From Erwinia sp. 198 (GTDB taxonomy: Bacteria; Pseudomonadota; Gammaproteobacteria; Enterobacterales; Enterobacteriaceae): DNA of 64,000 nucleotides. The notes under the pieces were generated by a model. It did not search any database. It had not been told where the DNA came from and was given only the letters and a program-made list of their open reading frames with translations. Of this stretch, positions 7,962-14,544 are shown in pieces. The DNA is taken from the NCBI RefSeq assembly GCF_003937915.1, contig NZ_RHUM01000002.1, forward strand, positions 248,001 through 312,000, read 5' to 3'. Numbering within the stretch: position 1 is the first letter of the stretch; each line of letters begins with the position of its first letter. A program made the position numbers and the translations under genes.

Positions 7962-10028
7962 ATGATCAAGGTAAAATCGGCTATTGTCTGGGGCGGCGTG
8001 GCGATAGTCGGCGCGATCGCCTTCGCTATGCTGGCGCTCAGCCGCGGTGAACAGGTTAACGCGCTCTGGCTGGTGGTGGCCGCCGTGGCCTGCTACAGCA
8101 TCGCATGGCGGTTCTACAGCCGCTTTATCGCCAAAAACGTGTTTGAACTGGACGACCGTCGGCTCACTCCCGCCGAAAGGCTCAACGACGGGCTGGACTA
8201 CGTGCCCACCAATAAATGGGTACTGTTTGGCCACCATTTTGCCGCTATCGCCGGCGCCGGCCCGCTGGTCGGCCCGATTCTGGCGGCGCAAATGGGCTTT
8301 TTGCCCGGCACGCTGTGGATCCTGATCGGCGTGATGCTTGCCGGTGCGGTACAGGATTTCCTGATCCTGTTTATCTCCACCCGCCGCGACGGCCGCTCGC
8401 TGGGCGAAATGGCGAAACAGGAGCTGGGCGCGTTCGCGGGCGTTGTAACCATGCTGGGCGCGCTGGGCGTGATGATCATTATTCTTTCCGCGCTGGCGCT
8501 GGTGGTGGTTAAAGCGCTGGCCAACAGCCCCTGGGGACTGTTTACTATCGCGGCCACCATCCCTATCGCCCTGTTTATGGGGATTTATATGCGCTTTCTG
8601 CGGCCGGGTAAAATCGCAGAAGTGTCGCTGATTGGTTTTGTACTGATGATGGCGGCGATTATCTACGGCGGCACCATCGCGCAGCACGAGTTTTGGGGGC
8701 CGTTTTTTACCCTGAAGGGCACCACGCTGACCTGGGTACTGGTGATTTACGGTTTTGTCGCCTCCGTGCTGCCGGTATGGCTGCTGCTGGCGCCGCGCGA
8801 CTACCTTTCCACCTTCCTGAAAATCGGGGTGATCGTCGGTCTGGCTATCGGCATTTTGTTTGCCATGCCGGAGATGAAAATGCCCGCCGTGACGCGTTTT
8901 ATTGACGGCAGCGGCCCGGTTTTCGCCGGCAGCCTGTTTCCTTTCCTGTTTATCACTATCGCCTGCGGTGCTATCTCTGGCTTTCACGCGCTGGTCTCCA
9001 GCGGCACCACGCCCAAGCTGATTGAGCGTGAGAGCCATATCCGTATGATTGGCTACGGCGCGATGCTGATGGAGTCGTTTGTCGCGATTATGGCGCTGAT
9101 TTGCGCTTCAGTCATTGAGCCTGGCGTCTACTTCGCCATGAACTCGCCTGCTGCGCTAATCGGCACTACGGTAGAATCCGCCTCGCAGGCTATTAACGGC
9201 TGGGGCTTTGTGGTGACGCCGGAAATGCTGAGCGGCATCGCCAGAGATGTTGGCGAAGGCACTATCCTCTCTCGTGCCGGCGGTGCGCCTACTTTTGCCG
9301 TAGGCATGGCGCATATCATTACTGAAGTGTTTAACAGCCGCGCCATGATGGCGTTCTGGTATCACTTTGCCATTCTGTTTGAGGCGCTGTTTATTCTGAC
9401 CGCCGTGGATGCGGGCACCCGCGCCTGCCGGTTTATGGTGCAGGATCTGGTGGGCACCGTGGTGCCGTCGCTGGCGAACAACCGTTCCTGGCTGGGCAAT
9501 ATGGCGGGCACCACCGTGGCGGTAGCGGGCTGGGGGTTCTTTGTCTATCAGGGCGTGGTCGATCCGCTTGGCGGCATTAACACGCTGTGGCCGCTGTTCG
9601 GCATCGGCAACCAGATGCTGGCCTCAATGGCGCTGATCCTCGGCACCGTTGTCCTGTTTAAGATGAAAAAACAGCGTTACGCCTGGGTAACCATCCTGCC
9701 GACGGCATGGCTTTTTATCACCTCAATGTATGCAGGCTGGCAGAAGATTTTCCACGAGAAACCAGCCATTGGCTTTCTTGCTCAGGCCAGAAAGTTCTCT
9801 AAAGGCATTGAGGAGGGCGTAATTATCGCACCAGCCAAAACTGTAGTGGATATGCAGACTATCGTTTTCAGCAATCAGATCAACGCCGCGCTCTGCGCCT
9901 TTTTTATGCTGGTTGCCGTTACCATGCTTATTGCGGCTTTTTTCGTCATTCGCCGCGCATTAAACAGTCAAACTCCAACGGTGCACGAAGCCGATATTTC
10001 CCTGCGAAGCGAGGCACGCCATGGCTAG
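7962..10028 (+). CDS. CstA/BtsT-family transporter (carbon starvation protein)
   Basis: The 688-residue inner-membrane protein has around 16-18 hydrophobic segments and matches CstA and BtsT along its whole length. Landmark blocks are LFGHHFAAIAGAGPLVGP near residue 70, AGAVQDFLILFISTRRDG near 130, FITIACGAISGFHALVSSG near 330, and VDPLGGINTLWPLFGIGNQ near 530. E. coli members import pyruvate (BtsT, CstA) and have been linked to peptide use in starvation. The ATG at 7962 is preferred to the GTG just before it because GGAG lies 7 nt upstream. The next gene encodes the usual small YbdD/YjiX partner and overlaps the stop codon by 8 nt. Confidence 0.9.
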   Translation: MIKVKSAIVWGGVAIVGAIAFAMLALSRGEQVNALWLVVAAVACYSIAWRFYSRFIAKNVFELDDRRLTPAERLNDGLDYVPTNKWVLFGHHFAAIAGAGPLVGPILAAQMGFLPGTLWILIGVMLAGAVQDFLILFISTRRDGRSLGEMAKQELGAFAGVVTMLGALGVMIIILSALALVVVKALANSPWGLFTIAATIPIALFMGIYMRFLRPGKIAEVSLIGFVLMMAAIIYGGTIAQHEFWGPFFTLKGTTLTWVLVIYGFVASVLPVWLLLAPRDYLSTFLKIGVIVGLAIGILFAMPEMKMPAVTRFIDGSGPVFAGSLFPFLFITIACGAISGFHALVSSGTTPKLIERESHIRMIGYGAMLMESFVAIMALICASVIEPGVYFAMNSPAALIGTTVESASQAINGWGFVVTPEMLSGIARDVGEGTILSRAGGAPTFAVGMAHIITEVFNSRAMMAFWYHFAILFEALFILTAVDAGTRACRFMVQDLVGTVVPSLANNRSWLGNMAGTTVAVAGWGFFVYQGVVDPLGGINTLWPLFGIGNQMLASMALILGTVVLFKMKKQRYAWVTILPTAWLFITSMYAGWQKIFHEKPAIGFLAQARKFSKGIEEGVIIAPAKTVVDMQTIVFSNQINAALCAFFMLVAVTMLIAAFFVIRRALNSQTPTVHEADISLRSEARHG

Positions 10029-10311
10029 AGCTATTTTTTCCCGGCCCGTAAGAAACCGGCTGCAGGTGATCCGCTGTCGACCTTTAGCCACAACGGTATT
10101 AAAAGGATCACTAACGTTACGGTTGTTAATGTCGCGGCTGGCGCAGTGTTTTCGCCTGATGGTTGGCGTTCAGGACTATCAAACCTACCTGCGGCATATG
10201 CAGCAGCATCATCCCGCTAATAAAGCTATGACGGAAAAAGAGTTTCACCGCTACTGTCTGGAAGCCCGCTTTCCTTCCGTGGCGGGAAAAGTCGGAAAAT
10301 GTCCCTGCTGA
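10021..10311 (+). CDS. YbdD/YjiX-family small protein (CstA partner)
   Basis: The C-terminal 60 residues match the short YbdD/YjiX (DUF466) family that normally follows cstA or btsT, with the core MVGVQDYQTYLRHMQ and a terminal cysteine pair (KCPC). The start is uncertain. The ATG at 10021 has GAGG 6 nt upstream and overlaps the transporter gene by 8 nt, giving 96 residues, about 30 more than usual. An in-frame ATG at 10129 gives a family-length 60-residue protein but has no good ribosome binding site. The function of the family is not settled. Confidence 0.75.
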   Translation: MARAIFSRPVRNRLQVIRCRPLATTVLKGSLTLRLLMSRLAQCFRLMVGVQDYQTYLRHMQQHHPANKAMTEKEFHRYCLEARFPSVAGKVGKCPC

Positions 10312-10316
10312 TCCCG

Positions 10317-10344
10317 GCCCCGATCGTGCGATCGGGGCTTTTTT
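10317..10344 (+). terminator. Intrinsic terminator after the cstA-like operon
   Basis: A 9-bp stem GCCCCGATC / GATCGGGGC with loop GTGC is followed by six T, just after the YbdD-like stop. Confidence 0.9.
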
Positions 10345-10469
10345 CGCCATAGTTAATTTCCGACATAAAAAATATCTTAAACATTGCGCTTGTGATTATC
10401 CTGTTTGCCGAATACTGTTGCTAAAATAATAAGATACAGCCTGTATTGCATCCTCCAGGGAGAAATCTG

Positions 10470-12455
10470 ATGACCGATGAGCAAGGGCAATCACTACTTT
10501 ATACCTGGTTTGGTACTAACAGCCCTCATTGGCGTTTAAAGTCCGACAGCGATGCGCTTTTATTTGCAGAGGATGAATCGGCCGATACGCACGTCGTTAT
10601 CCCCTTAACGCCTACGCAGGCAAGCCTGCTGCGCGCGATGACCGTGATCACCTCCAGCGTGAACCTGACGGTGTCGCTGTATGGCGAACCGCTTTCCATG
10701 CATCTGGTTGGCCGCCGCGTTAACCAGACTGAATGGGCGGGCAGCGCTTCCGCCTGGGGCGATACCGCAAGCGTGGCGCGCGATCTGGCGCTGGGCCTTT
10801 CGTTCGCCGAACAGGTGGTGTCGGAGGCCAACTCGGTGATCGTCATCCTTGACCAGCGCGGCAATATTCAGCGCTTTAACCGCAAAAGCGAAGAGTATAC
10901 CGGGCTGAAAGAACAGGAAGTTATCGGCCGCAACGTCTTTCAGCTGTTTATGACTCGCCAGGAGGCCGCCTCGTCACGCCGCAACATCAGCGGTTTTTTC
11001 CGCGACGGCAACTCTTACGAAGTGGAAAGATGGGTGAAAACCCGTCAGGGACAACGTTTATTTCTTTTCCGAAACAAGTTTGTCCACAGCGGCAGCGGAA
11101 AAAATGAAATCTTCCTGATCTGCTCCGGCACCGATATTACCGAAGAGCGTCGGGCGCAGGAGCGCCTGCGGGTACTGGCGAACACCGACGGCATTACCGG
11201 CCTGCCTAATCGTAATGCGATCAATAACGCTATCACGGAAGCGCTGGCGGAAGAGGTGCAGCAGCAGATCGGTATCGTCTATCTCGACCTGGATAATTTT
11301 AAGAAGGTGAACGACGCCTACGGCCATATGTTCGGCGACCAGCTGTTAAAAGCGGTGTCGCTGGCTATTTTAAGCTGCCTGGCAAAAAACCAGACGCTGG
11401 CGCGCCTGGGCGGCGACGAATTCCTGGTGCTGGCGGTCGGCGCGACGCAGCAAGAGCTGGAAGCGATGGCTACGCGCATTCTTGACAGGCTCAAACAGCC
11501 CTTCCGCATCGGGCTGATTGAAGTTTATTCCGGCTGCTCTATCGGCATCGCGCTGAGTCCGCAGCATGGCGAGGATCGCGAGAGCCTGATCCGCAACGCG
11601 GATACGGCTATGTATACGGCAAAAGAGAACGGGCGCGGCAAGTCCTGCATTTTTGCAGCTGAAATGAATCAGCGCGTATTTGAATACCTCTGGCTGGATA
11701 CCAATCTTCGCAAGGCTCTGGAGCAGGATCAGCTGATTATTCATTATCAGCCCAAGCTGGATCGGGCCGGTGAAGTGCACAGCGTAGAGGCGCTGGTGCG
11801 CTGGGTGTCGCCGGAACGCGGGCTGGTTTCGCCGGCGGACTTTATCTCCTATGCCGAAGAGTCGGGGCTAATCGTGCCGCTGGGCCGCTGGGTTATGCTG
11901 ACCGCGCTTGAACAGATCCTCACCTGGCGCAAAAAAGGCATTAATCTGCGCGTGGCCGTTAACGTCTCGCCGCGCCAGCTGCTTGATGAAAGCATCTATA
12001 TCGATCTGAAGCGTGCGCTGGGCAAGGCGAACCTGGCGAGCTGCCCGCTGGATATTGAGCTGACCGAAAGCTGCCTGATTGAAAACGAGCAGCAGGCGTT
12101 GACGCTGATGAATCAATTCCAGGCGCTGGGAGCAGAAGTGCATCTGGACGATTTCGGGACCGGTTACTCTTCCCTTTCGCAGCTGGCGCGCGTGCCGATT
12201 AACGCCATCAAGCTGGATCAGAGCTTTATTCGCGGCGTTAACAGTCAGCCGGTATCACAATCGCTGGTGCGAGCGATTGTCGCGGTCGCTAAGGCGTTAA
12301 ATTTGCAGGTTATCGCGGAAGGCATCGAAACGACAGAGGAAGAGACATTTATAATGGCGAGCGGTGTGGACGCTCGCCAGGGATTTTTATACGCCAGGCC
12401 TATGCCCGCAGACGCGCTGGAGCAATGGCTGGCGAAACGTTACGCCGGTGCTTAA
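10470..12455 (+). CDS. pdeR: RpfR/PdeR: FI-PAS-GGDEF-EAL c-di-GMP enzyme and DSF receptor
   Basis: The product has 661 residues, the length of E. coli PdeR (YciR/Gmr). The N-terminal ~95 residues correspond to the RpfF-interaction domain of RpfR proteins. A PAS domain follows (about 105-220), then a GGDEF domain with an intact GGDEF motif at 314-318, then an EAL domain with EAL at 440-442 and DDFGTGYSS further on. In Cronobacter and Burkholderia, RpfR binds the fatty-acid signal through PAS and changes cyclic-di-GMP turnover. The ATG at 10470 has GGGAG 6 nt upstream. The convergent partner is rpfF, and the two stop codons share TTAA. In E. coli the orphan PdeR acts on the curli regulator cascade. 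Confidence 0.9.
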   Translation: MTDEQGQSLLYTWFGTNSPHWRLKSDSDALLFAEDESADTHVVIPLTPTQASLLRAMTVITSSVNLTVSLYGEPLSMHLVGRRVNQTEWAGSASAWGDTASVARDLALGLSFAEQVVSEANSVIVILDQRGNIQRFNRKSEEYTGLKEQEVIGRNVFQLFMTRQEAASSRRNISGFFRDGNSYEVERWVKTRQGQRLFLFRNKFVHSGSGKNEIFLICSGTDITEERRAQERLRVLANTDGITGLPNRNAINNAITEALAEEVQQQIGIVYLDLDNFKKVNDAYGHMFGDQLLKAVSLAILSCLAKNQTLARLGGDEFLVLAVGATQQELEAMATRILDRLKQPFRIGLIEVYSGCSIGIALSPQHGEDRESLIRNADTAMYTAKENGRGKSCIFAAEMNQRVFEYLWLDTNLRKALEQDQLIIHYQPKLDRAGEVHSVEALVRWVSPERGLVSPADFISYAEESGLIVPLGRWVMLTALEQILTWRKKGINLRVAVNVSPRQLLDESIYIDLKRALGKANLASCPLDIELTESCLIENEQQALTLMNQFQALGAEVHLDDFGTGYSSLSQLARVPINAIKLDQSFIRGVNSQPVSQSLVRAIVAVAKALNLQVIAEGIETTEEETFIMASGVDARQGFLYARPMPADALEQWLAKRYAGA

Positions 12456-13321
12456 CCCGCCTTACGCATAACCTGCGCGCTGTGGCGGTTTTGCAGCTGT
12501 ACCAGCCTTTCCATATAGGCTATATCCTTGGGTTCGATAGAGAAGGCAAATTCCACCCAATCTTCGGTGATATCCATCAGCTCTGCCCGCGTCAGCTGCA
12601 ATACTCGCTGACGCGCCCTTAACATCGCTCTGACGCCGTTGAGTTTCGGTTTCATCGTGTCGATAAAGGTGCGGGTAGTCTGGTAGCCTTCGCCCGGCTG
12701 GAACAGGCGATCAACCAACCCTCGCGTTTCAAACCATTCCGCTGAATGCGACTCTCCTTCGCAGATCAGCTCTTCCGCCAGCTTCATGCCCGAACGCCGG
12801 GCCACCAGCGAATAGCCGCCCATGCCCGGAAACAGGTTGAACGCAATTTCCGGGAAGCCCATGCGCGCCGTGTCCTGCGCCAGGATAAAGTGGTGCGCCA
12901 GCGCGGCCTCAAAGCCGCCGCCCAGCGCGCTGCCCTCGATCATGGCGATGGTCACCGCACCGGTATCAAATCCGCGCGCCGCCGCGTGAATGCAGTCCAC
13001 GCAGGCGCGCGCGTAGGCCCGCAGCGCTTCTCGACGCCCGTTTTTAATGCATTCAACAAAAAATCCAAGGTCGCCTCCCGCGTTAAACATCGTCGGCACC
13101 AGCGAGCCGGTTACCCAAAAGTCGATGGGCAAACCGGAACGCTGCGCGGCATAGCTGAGGTTCATTATCTCTTCGATAAGCTCATGGTTAAAGCTGGGGC
13201 GCGGCTGCGCGCGTAGCATCATCCATAACGTGCGTCGTCCTTCTTCGTAGTAGGCGGAAAGCTGAGTGGTTTGTCCAGCTTCGCTAAACAGCCGGCAGGT
13301 GGTCTGATTAATTACGGTCAT
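12452..13321 (-). CDS. rpfF: RpfF, diffusible signal factor (DSF) synthase
   Basis: The 289-residue crotonase-fold enzyme matches RpfF of Cronobacter and Burkholderia (BDSF synthase). RpfF enzymes take 3-hydroxyacyl-ACP, dehydrate it to a cis-2 acyl-ACP and release the free fatty-acid signal. The two catalytic glutamates are visible, E138 in GGGFEAAL and E158 in GFPEIAFNLFPGMGG, with the same 20-residue spacing as E141/E161 of Xanthomonas RpfF. It points toward the receptor gene pdeR/rpfR and overlaps its end by 4 nt, the arrangement expected of an Rpf signal/receptor pair. E. coli K-12 has no rpfF here. Confidence 0.92.
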   Translation of the reverse strand: MTVINQTTCRLFSEAGQTTQLSAYYEEGRRTLWMMLRAQPRPSFNHELIEEIMNLSYAAQRSGLPIDFWVTGSLVPTMFNAGGDLGFFVECIKNGRREALRAYARACVDCIHAAARGFDTGAVTIAMIEGSALGGGFEAALAHHFILAQDTARMGFPEIAFNLFPGMGGYSLVARRSGMKLAEELICEGESHSAEWFETRGLVDRLFQPGEGYQTTRTFIDTMKPKLNGVRAMLRARQRVLQLTRAELMDITEDWVEFAFSIEPKDIAYMERLVQLQNRHSAQVMRKAG

Positions 13322-13518
13322 ATTCTCATCCTCTGTTTATGGGTGCGCTTAAGCGCGCTCCAAGCGTAATGCAGAGTACGAGACGGCTGTACTTTCGTTT
13401 GATTTTAAAGGTAAATTATTTTTACCCCGCTGGCCTGAAAGCCAGCGAGGCGTTAATAACAGACAGTTTTTTCGACAATAACCGATGGAGGGAAATAACG
13501 TTATGTTTTCTGATTAAT

Positions 13519-14220
13519 TTATTTTATCTGACCATACCAGGCATTGCTGCCGTGCTTGCGTAAATAATGGCAGTCCAGCAGCGGCTGCTGAATGGCGGGC
13601 AGCGAAGGCGTTAACAGCTGGCTGTAAATACCCATATAGGCGACTTCTTCCAGCACTACCGCCGAATGTACGGCTTTTTCCGGCGTTTTTCCCCAGCAAA
13701 ACGGGCCGTGGGAATTGACCAGAACGGCCGGCACCGCCAGCGGATCCAGATCTTTTTCACGGAAAGTTTCGACGATCACCTGCCCCGTTTCCCACTCATA
13801 GCGGGAGCCGATTTCTTCCGGCGTCATCTGGCGACTACAGGGGATAGCACCGTAAAAATCATCGGCGTGGGTGGTGCCCCAGGCGGGGATCTCTCTGCCC
13901 GCCTGCGCCCAAATGGTGGCGTGGCGGGAATGCGTATGGACAATGCTGCCTACCTCAGGCCAGGCCAGATAGAGTGCGCGATGCGTGTCGGTATCGGAAG
14001 AAGGCCGCATACTGCCTTCGCGCACCTCGCCGCTGTGCAGATCGACCACGACCATATCTTCGCGCTTCATCGCCTCATAGCTGACCCCGGAAGGTTTAAT
14101 CACTATCAGGCCCTGCTCACGATCGACCGCGCTTACGTTACCCCAGGTGAACACCACCAGACCGTGGCGAGGCAGCGCCAGATTAGCTTCCAGCACCTGT
14201 TGTTTCAGTTCTTCCAGCAT
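13519..14220 (-). CDS. araD: L-ribulose-5-phosphate 4-epimerase
   Basis: The 233-residue product is a class-II-aldolase-fold, metal-dependent enzyme that converts L-ribulose 5-phosphate to D-xylulose 5-phosphate. It matches E. coli AraD (231 aa) closely. [11 protein letters not shown] lies near residue 25, the zinc-site motif HTHSRH near 95, and the third zinc histidine in NSHGPF near 170. The paralogues SgbE and UlaF are alternatives, but AraD is the best match. It stands alone without araA or araB, which is unusual; an AraC-type half-site lies 52 nt upstream. Confidence 0.88.
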
Positions 14221-14271
14221 TTGGTTTCTCCCGCTTTTTTCTACATTGTCCTCGCTGGCCTGCCATCAGGG

Positions 14272-14287
14272 TATGGAGGCAATCGCT
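14272..14287 (-). promoter_or_regulatory. Candidate AraC half-site upstream of araD
   Basis: Read on the minus strand the site is AGC-N7-TCCATA, matching the E. coli AraC half-site TAGC-N7-TCCATA except for its first base. It lies 52-67 nt before the araD ATG, where an activator would sit. No clear second half-site follows. Confidence 0.35.
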
Positions 14288-14544
14288 GGATGCGTGGCAG
14301 AAATTAGCTGGGTGACGCTAAAAACCGTGGGAAATTAAGATTTTTTACCTGTAAAGACGATCGTCTATGCTTAGAATACGTGCCAGCAATACCTTTACAG
14401 AAATAAGTCTGAAACTTAACAAATGTGTAAGTGTTGCTTCACGAGTAAGGTAAGAACAACGTGATATATGATGGCAATGTTTTATTTACGTGAGATAAAT
14501 CGCTAAGAAACGGGGGTGTCCGGGCCAAAAGGCAAGGTAAACCT

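Follow-up and report, generated by a model that had tools for sequence, protein, structure and literature searches.

The closest described systems are the RpfF/RpfR pairs of Cronobacter turicensis and Burkholderia cenocepacia, in which the genes for the diffusible signal factor (DSF) synthase RpfF and its receptor RpfR have been published as convergent (PMC6361424; for Burkholderia, PMC4504480). RpfF is bound and inhibited by the RpfF-interaction (FI) domain of RpfR, residues R187 and N202 of RpfR contact the Burkholderia signal BDSF, and Escherichia coli is without RpfF (PMC6361424). The window analysed comprises 64,000 nucleotides (nt) of Erwinia sp. 198 (contig NZ_RHUM01000002.1, positions 248,001 to 312,000), within which all coordinates are given, and it holds a canonical RpfF/RpfR pair, as judged from homology. 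The pair matches those of C. turicensis and B. cenocepacia in its proteins, domain order, key residues and convergence, so that the pairing named in the original prediction as known from Cronobacter and Burkholderia was borne out (PMC6361424, PMC4504480). With fair assurance, we read the locus as a conventional pair in which rpfF transcription would end at a terminator-like hairpin embedded in rpfR.

Three further comparisons frame this reading. In two Burkholderia loci, 42 and 48 nt lie between the stop codons, compared with four common bases in the window, and an inverted repeat (seen by eye) as well as a terminator-scan match were found there between the stops. Convergent overlaps of four bases form a known class (PMC2174442). 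In E. coli, 58 convergent overlaps have been counted, of which 19 have a rho-independent terminator of one gene within the other and two have one for both genes (PMC2174442). These likewise have one gene's terminator embedded in the other, whereas rpfF/rpfR is not among them as far as seen, and the present analysis tested rpfR for clade-wide codon constraint and for its disappearance where the partner is gone. The arfA-mscL locus of E. coli also has tail-to-tail genes with overlapping 3' regions; experiments have demonstrated antisense regulation there (PMC10070815), whereas for rpfF/rpfR it is a possibility. No description of an rpfF-rpfR overlap, or of the terminator of one inside the other, was found in the open-access literature, which omits most subscription papers.

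Convergent overlap of rpfF and rpfR

The features of the junction are as follows.

10470..12455, plus strand: rpfR (pdeR orthologue), 661 residues, domain order FI-PAS-GGDEF-EAL (1194 bits to NCBIfam NF007474, cut-off 782; Pfam)
12452..13321, minus strand: rpfF, DSF-family synthase, 289 residues (phmmer; NCBIfam NF006452)
12452..12455, no strand: TTAA common to both stop codons, a 4-nt convergent overlap (sequence)
12355..12379, minus strand: hairpin with a 9-bp stem within the rpfR codons, a candidate terminator of rpfF and the best site after that gene

The reading frames of both genes are intact, converging and adjacent in the window. That of rpfR runs from the ATG at 10470 to the TAA stop at 12453-12455 on the plus strand, and that of rpfF from the ATG at 13321 to its stop, the TTA at 12452-12454 read on the minus strand. 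The shared TTAA proposed in the original prediction was thus confirmed from the open reading frames (ORFs) and their coordinates. Its statement that no terminator lies between the genes is trivially true because they overlap, and needs amending in that terminator-like hairpins sit inside rpfR on the rpfF strand.

Within the source genome, a 4-nt convergent overlap is uncommon but not unique: it occurred in three of 53 convergent pairs over 464 kb, rpfF/rpfR included, and five of the 53 had stops within 20 nt of each other, the genes of this baseline being the ORF calls of the present analysis, with short genes missed. The two other pairs with this overlap served as a control for persistence, with 30 loci fetched out of 43 matches for the first and 30 out of 51 for the second. 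The partner was gone in 29/29 and 22/29 other loci; of the remaining loci of the second pair, four were on the same strand or cut and three were wider. This control was not informative.

For the family survey, 69 fetched junctions and the window were read, giving 70 pairs, all of them convergent. Stops overlapped by four bases in 26, were 0-20 nt apart in 21, 21-40 nt apart in eight and more than 40 nt apart in 15, for a total range of -4 to 6267. One of these 15 pairs (L203) was assigned a gap of 1064, measured to an interrupted reading frame. A set of named loci, which probably has species in common with the 70 pairs, gave the four-base overlap in 25 of 99, window included; of its 104 loci used, 99 have both genes, L080, L091, L093 and L097 end before rpfR, L107 is without rpfF, and L081-L084 were left out. 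On a tree of 69 of the 70 pairs, from which L203 was omitted, the overlap required five changes, compared with 21.0 in shuffles, with gain and loss indistinguishable. The 4-nt overlap is a clade-inherited state, common to 26 of the 70 family pairs.

Hairpin embedded in rpfR

In the overlapping clade, the rpfR codons for D-A-F-L-T-K-N-G-V write a hairpin with a 6-bp stem (GACGCC ... GGCGTC), which on the rpfF strand is followed by a T-rich tail such as TTCTTT. The distance from the rpfF stop to this hairpin is about 116 nt, and its energy is usually -12.3 to -13.9 kcal/mol. The stem was tabulated in 57 rows, comprising 24 overlapping pairs (the window and its sister L158 excluded), 12 wide pairs chosen by motif and 21 rpfR genes without rpfF. 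The full stem was present in 23/24, 2/12 and 4/21 of these, respectively, and three of the four partnerless genes that bear it belong to genus groups that also hold rpfF. Among the named loci, of which two of 99 lacked the PMP motif, the count was 21/21 overlapping and 2/7 wide. In E. coli pdeR, the stem is broken, with four of six matches. A first survey of the stem had left 17 of 90 rpfR genes without a row, as the anchor motif was missing, and its rows for L213, L219, L220 and L224 were anchored wrongly and are meaningless.

Codon usage points to constraint on this element. Over the overlapping clade, third-position C reached at least 95% of rows in five of 123 conserved D/A/G/V columns, four of which belong to the stem, while no such column reached 95% in the wide and partnerless groups. 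The D, A, K and V stem codons are invariant in the clade and that for G reaches 96%. Of the 14 most codon-conserved columns listed, from 438 conserved degenerate ones, 11 fall within codons 623-651, the tail codons K623 and E624 and the stem codons D625, A626, K630, G632 and V633 among them. Since a single tree underlies every column, the contrast between them is not simply one of relatedness. Stem and T-rich tail thus appear to have been kept in the overlapping clade beyond coding need, a reading that is partly post hoc.

Relatives of the Pantoea type carry a different possible element, CCAATGCCCG ... CGGGCATTGG with the tail TTTTGC, written by the codons for P-M-P-A ... G-H-W. Nine or ten of its ten arm bases were present in 34 of 55 Erwiniaceae-like loci and the TTTTG tail in 28 of 55; against codon shuffles, none of 60 was as good in L159, L161, L167 and L168, and one of 60 in L165. 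For the window itself, the best site after rpfF is the 9-bp hairpin at 12355..12379, separated from the rpfF stop by about 72 nt, with a score of -7.0 that none of 100 synonymous shuffles equalled. Its tail, TTATAAAT, is weak, and it showed no conservation beyond the nearest named relative.

The end of rpfF transcription may accordingly be graded by lineage. By its codon constraint, the hairpin about 116 nt inside rpfR would clearly be the end for rpfF in the overlapping clade; Pantoea-like relatives probably use a different hairpin; and in the window a terminator at 12379-12355 is possible.

Several findings weigh against this reading. Because the hairpin was first noticed when scanning those same loci, the test on columns is in part post hoc. 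Taken singly, most loci of the clade fail to beat codon shuffles, 0 to 28 of the 60 shuffles being as good. Among five independent pairs on the tree, overlap and stem were concordant in an average of 1.9 and opposite in 0.3, and tests on independent pairs reach no significance because five are too few; raw Fisher tests were set aside, as they ignore kinship. A pooled synonymous scan of 71 of the 99 loci, which mixed clades with different hairpins, did not cross the 5% limit anywhere (-0.94 and -0.71, compared with limits of -1.11 and -0.88). The window has neither the clade hairpin nor the Pantoea-like element, and the sister L158 likewise lacks the clade hairpin. In L001, the nearest named relative, the stem of the window hairpin occurs but no such tail follows, and no good substitute hairpin was found in L158, L002, L005 or L048. 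In a negative control, 43 of 138 stretches from the rpfR interior also matched the permissive terminator scan described below, and terminator scores after rpfF lie near, and mostly below, the classical threshold.

Terminator scans and transcript ends

A strict scan, restricted to uninterrupted stems with loops of up to nine, found a terminator within 250 nt in 0/47 close pairs, 9/23 wide pairs and 1/21 partnerless rpfR genes; in the named set, within 400 nt, it found one in 1/90 loci with gaps up to 40 and in 8/9 wider ones. A permissive scan matched 39/47 close pairs, 22/23 wide pairs and 6/21 partnerless genes. Applied to the convergent pairs of the source genome, it matched 1/5 at 20 nt or less, 27/28 at 21-100 and 17/20 above. 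The idea that close pairs have no terminator nearby was rejected, as it reflected a blind spot of the strict scan, and a permissive match recurs after rpfF, inside rpfR. Scoring with a standard terminator formula covered 64 of the 70 pairs. After rpfF, scores above zero were obtained in 2/26 overlapping pairs, 1/21 pairs at 0-20 nt and 4/17 at 21-100 nt, and a terminator of rpfR inside rpfF was not found, with scores above zero in 0/26, 0/21 and 2/17 pairs. An Rfam search of positions 9500-14500 returned no match.

On the preferred reading, rpfF transcription would pass its stop codon into rpfR and most likely end at the embedded hairpin, which resembles an intrinsic terminator. The rpfF mRNA probably ends within rpfR, and therefore about 100 nt of it would be antisense to rpfR. 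The earlier statement that the two mRNAs must overlap at their 3' ends is supported in this respect by the terminator-like hairpins of rpfF within rpfR, but it presupposes that both mRNAs are made in full. The rpfR transcript end may depend on Rho or on polymerase collision.

The strongest competitor holds that no dedicated element exists, that the rpfR hairpins are a side effect of the coding sequence, and that both mRNAs end by Rho or head-on collision. Collision termination is prevalent for convergent E. coli genes (PMC13082048), and the absence of strict-scan terminators from all 47 close pairs and the poor tail of the window hairpin fit this explanation, to which we give a minor but real share of probability. 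Against it stand the codon constraint that the overlapping clade shows on stem and tail, and the loss of the stem from most wide pairs and partnerless genes.

Less probable still is the antisense coupling raised in the original prediction, by which a 3' overlap of about 100 nt would make the rpfF and rpfR mRNA levels interdependent through duplex formation (RNase III) or polymerase collision. An embedded hairpin implies a defined antisense tail, and the constraint on rpfR codons extends past the hairpin in overlapping pairs, where R636, F641, A648 and E651 are almost invariant too. The arfA-mscL locus of E. coli provides a working precedent (PMC10070815), by analogy with which a regulatory effect of the overlap is possible. 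On the other hand, a terminator limits antisense transcription rather than creating a need for it, and the spacing of the pairs varies over the whole range from -4 to 6267. A B. cenocepacia table lists rpfR values of 1 (first column), 0.6, 0.8 and 0.5, which we read as wild type versus rpfF mutant (PMC3502180), but the genes are more widely spaced in two other Burkholderia loci (42 and 48 nt). Moreover, the known FI-RpfF contact already couples synthase and receptor at the protein level.

A more ambitious version of the preferred reading would have dual-purpose rpfR codons write the rpfF terminator and leave an antisense tail of about 100 nt, with this layout having arisen differently in several lineages, through three different hairpins, and decaying when rpfF moves or is lost, and with a tie at the RNA level on top of the inhibition of RpfF by the FI domain. 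We regard this full combination as unlikely. What makes the locus of interest is that synthase and receptor seem to share nucleotides clade-wide in such a manner that receptor codons are constrained for the transcript end of the synthase. That constraint is mostly lost where the genes have moved apart or the synthase is gone, which provides a natural comparison set.

Identity of the two proteins and their co-occurrence

The receptor comprises the following regions.

10470..10754, plus strand: FI domain, residues 1-95 (phmmer to the RpfR chain of 6dga/6dgn, E 2.9e-27)
10812..11144, plus strand: PAS domain, residues 115-225, with R187 and N202 (Pfam; residues read)
11178..11639, plus strand: GGDEF domain, residues 237-390 (Pfam, E 2e-45)
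11703..12401, plus strand: EAL domain, residues 412-644 (Pfam, E 1.1e-67)

The full-length PAS-GGDEF-EAL receptor that had been predicted was recovered by domains and motifs (Pfam, NF007474), with the FI domain in addition. The crystallised FI domain 6dga was matched end to end, residues 1-95 to 1-95, the signature motifs are GGDEF at 314, EALVRW at 440 and DDFGTG at 560, and R187 and N202 are invariant across 43 aligned sequences.

In the synthase, the residues of interest are encoded as follows.

12908..12910, minus strand: codon of catalytic E138 of rpfF (alignment)
12848..12850, minus strand: codon of catalytic E158 of rpfF (alignment)

RpfF is a crotonase-family protein (Pfam ECH_1) with two catalytic glutamates 20 residues apart and the gating residues F44 and F88 in place. 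Phmmer searches matched it to RpfF in the structures 6dgn (E 4e-126) and 5fus (E 1.5e-125), and more distantly to the Xanthomonas RpfF 3m6m (E 5.8e-45). Its nearest named relatives are those of Pantoea sp. BAV 3049 (95%) and Erwinia typographi (93%), which points to an Erwiniaceae-like host. An intact RpfF with catalytic E138 and E158 was thereby found as claimed, both residues aligning with the two catalytic positions of Xanthomonas RpfF, which we take to be numbered E141 and E161 there. From its characterised homologues, RpfF would synthesise a cis-2-unsaturated fatty acid of the BDSF type and would be bound and inhibited by the FI domain of RpfR, and the signalling would affect cyclic di-GMP (c-di-GMP); to this extent homology supports the proposed DSF/BDSF-to-c-di-GMP signalling. 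Working as a unit would be what has kept the two genes next to each other and convergent.

Among 295 family genomes, RpfF was found in 70 and the FI domain in 102; none of the 70 had RpfF without FI, while 32 had FI without RpfF. Genomes with RpfF are thus strictly nested within those bearing FI, a pattern suggesting that the synthase has been lost repeatedly while the receptor stayed. E. coli has the orthologous receptor PdeR (YciR/Gmr), with the domain order of RpfR and no RpfF: a DNA-level search matched pdeR in 5372 of 5426 E. coli genomes and rpfF in 0/5426, in agreement with the claim that PdeR has no such partner there. These data bear on the explanation that RpfR acts mainly like E. 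coli PdeR, with the link to RpfF secondary. Its best curated match is indeed the PdeR-type family NF007474, and FI-bearing rpfR without rpfF was found in those 32 of 102 genomes; against this, FI has been kept and RpfF never occurs without it. Partnerless genes were analysed from 20 of the 32 genomes and E. coli. At matched EAL identity, conservation of FI and PAS was 0.44 and 0.79 in partnerless genes (58 pairs), compared with 0.65 and 0.90 in paired ones (173 pairs), which also speaks against a PdeR-like role; yet the unmatched FI/PAS divergence ratios were nearly equal (2.79 and 2.63), and no clear acceleration of FI was found in three apparent recent losses of rpfF. Overall, we consider this role improbable.

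It is very improbable that RpfF is a crotonase-family enzyme with a different role that adjoins rpfR by chance: it did not reach the NCBIfam RpfF equivalog NF053515 (176.3 bits, cut-off 550), but it reached NF006452 (410.2 bits, cut-off 177), it matches with E 4e-126 the RpfF crystallised with RpfR-FI, both glutamates are present, and co-occurrence with FI is strict.

Other features and individual loci

One further terminator-like element was located upstream of the pair.

10316..10339, plus strand: terminator-like hairpin between the upstream gene and rpfR

In E. coli K-12, the 3' end of pdeR overlaps the annotated small ORF ymiD (L107, 5800-5928), which converges on pdeR, by 19 nt, and about 100 nt beyond the pdeR stop there is a hairpin that carries a T-run. 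The possibility that ymiD is a relic of rpfF was rejected, since no resemblance was apparent by eye and tblastn gave no trace of RpfF. Remnants of RpfF were found in genome G188 (L228, 2125-2253), where residues 271-289 and 18-39 are nearly adjoining 3' of rpfR, as if an internal deletion had removed the rest of the gene. In L230 (G633), RpfF is traceable, and weakly so (E 7e-3), over no more than about its last 18 residues.

Two Buttiauxella loci have wide spacing and a still intact hairpin stem in rpfR. In B. izardii (L067, 5927-7278), rpfF and rpfR are separated by two ORFs, presumably a LysR-like regulator and a carboxymuconolactone-decarboxylase-like protein, and in B. agrestis (L079) by 1494 nt. 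Genome G629 has, in addition to a normal overlapping pair, a second intact-looking rpfF (L221, 1865-2734) with no rpfR within the fetched 5 kb; ORFs near it are presumably LuxR-like and LacI-like regulators. The rpfR frame of L203 (genome G594) is interrupted (308 residues), and this pair may be decaying or its assembly faulty. Finally, rpfR appears broken in Pantoea dispersa DSM 30073 (L015), where about 140 N-terminal residues are missing and it follows on what we take to be a cstA-like frame, and in P. conspicua LMG 24534 (L033), where the FI part lies in a different frame; these two may reflect an assembly error or a real lesion.

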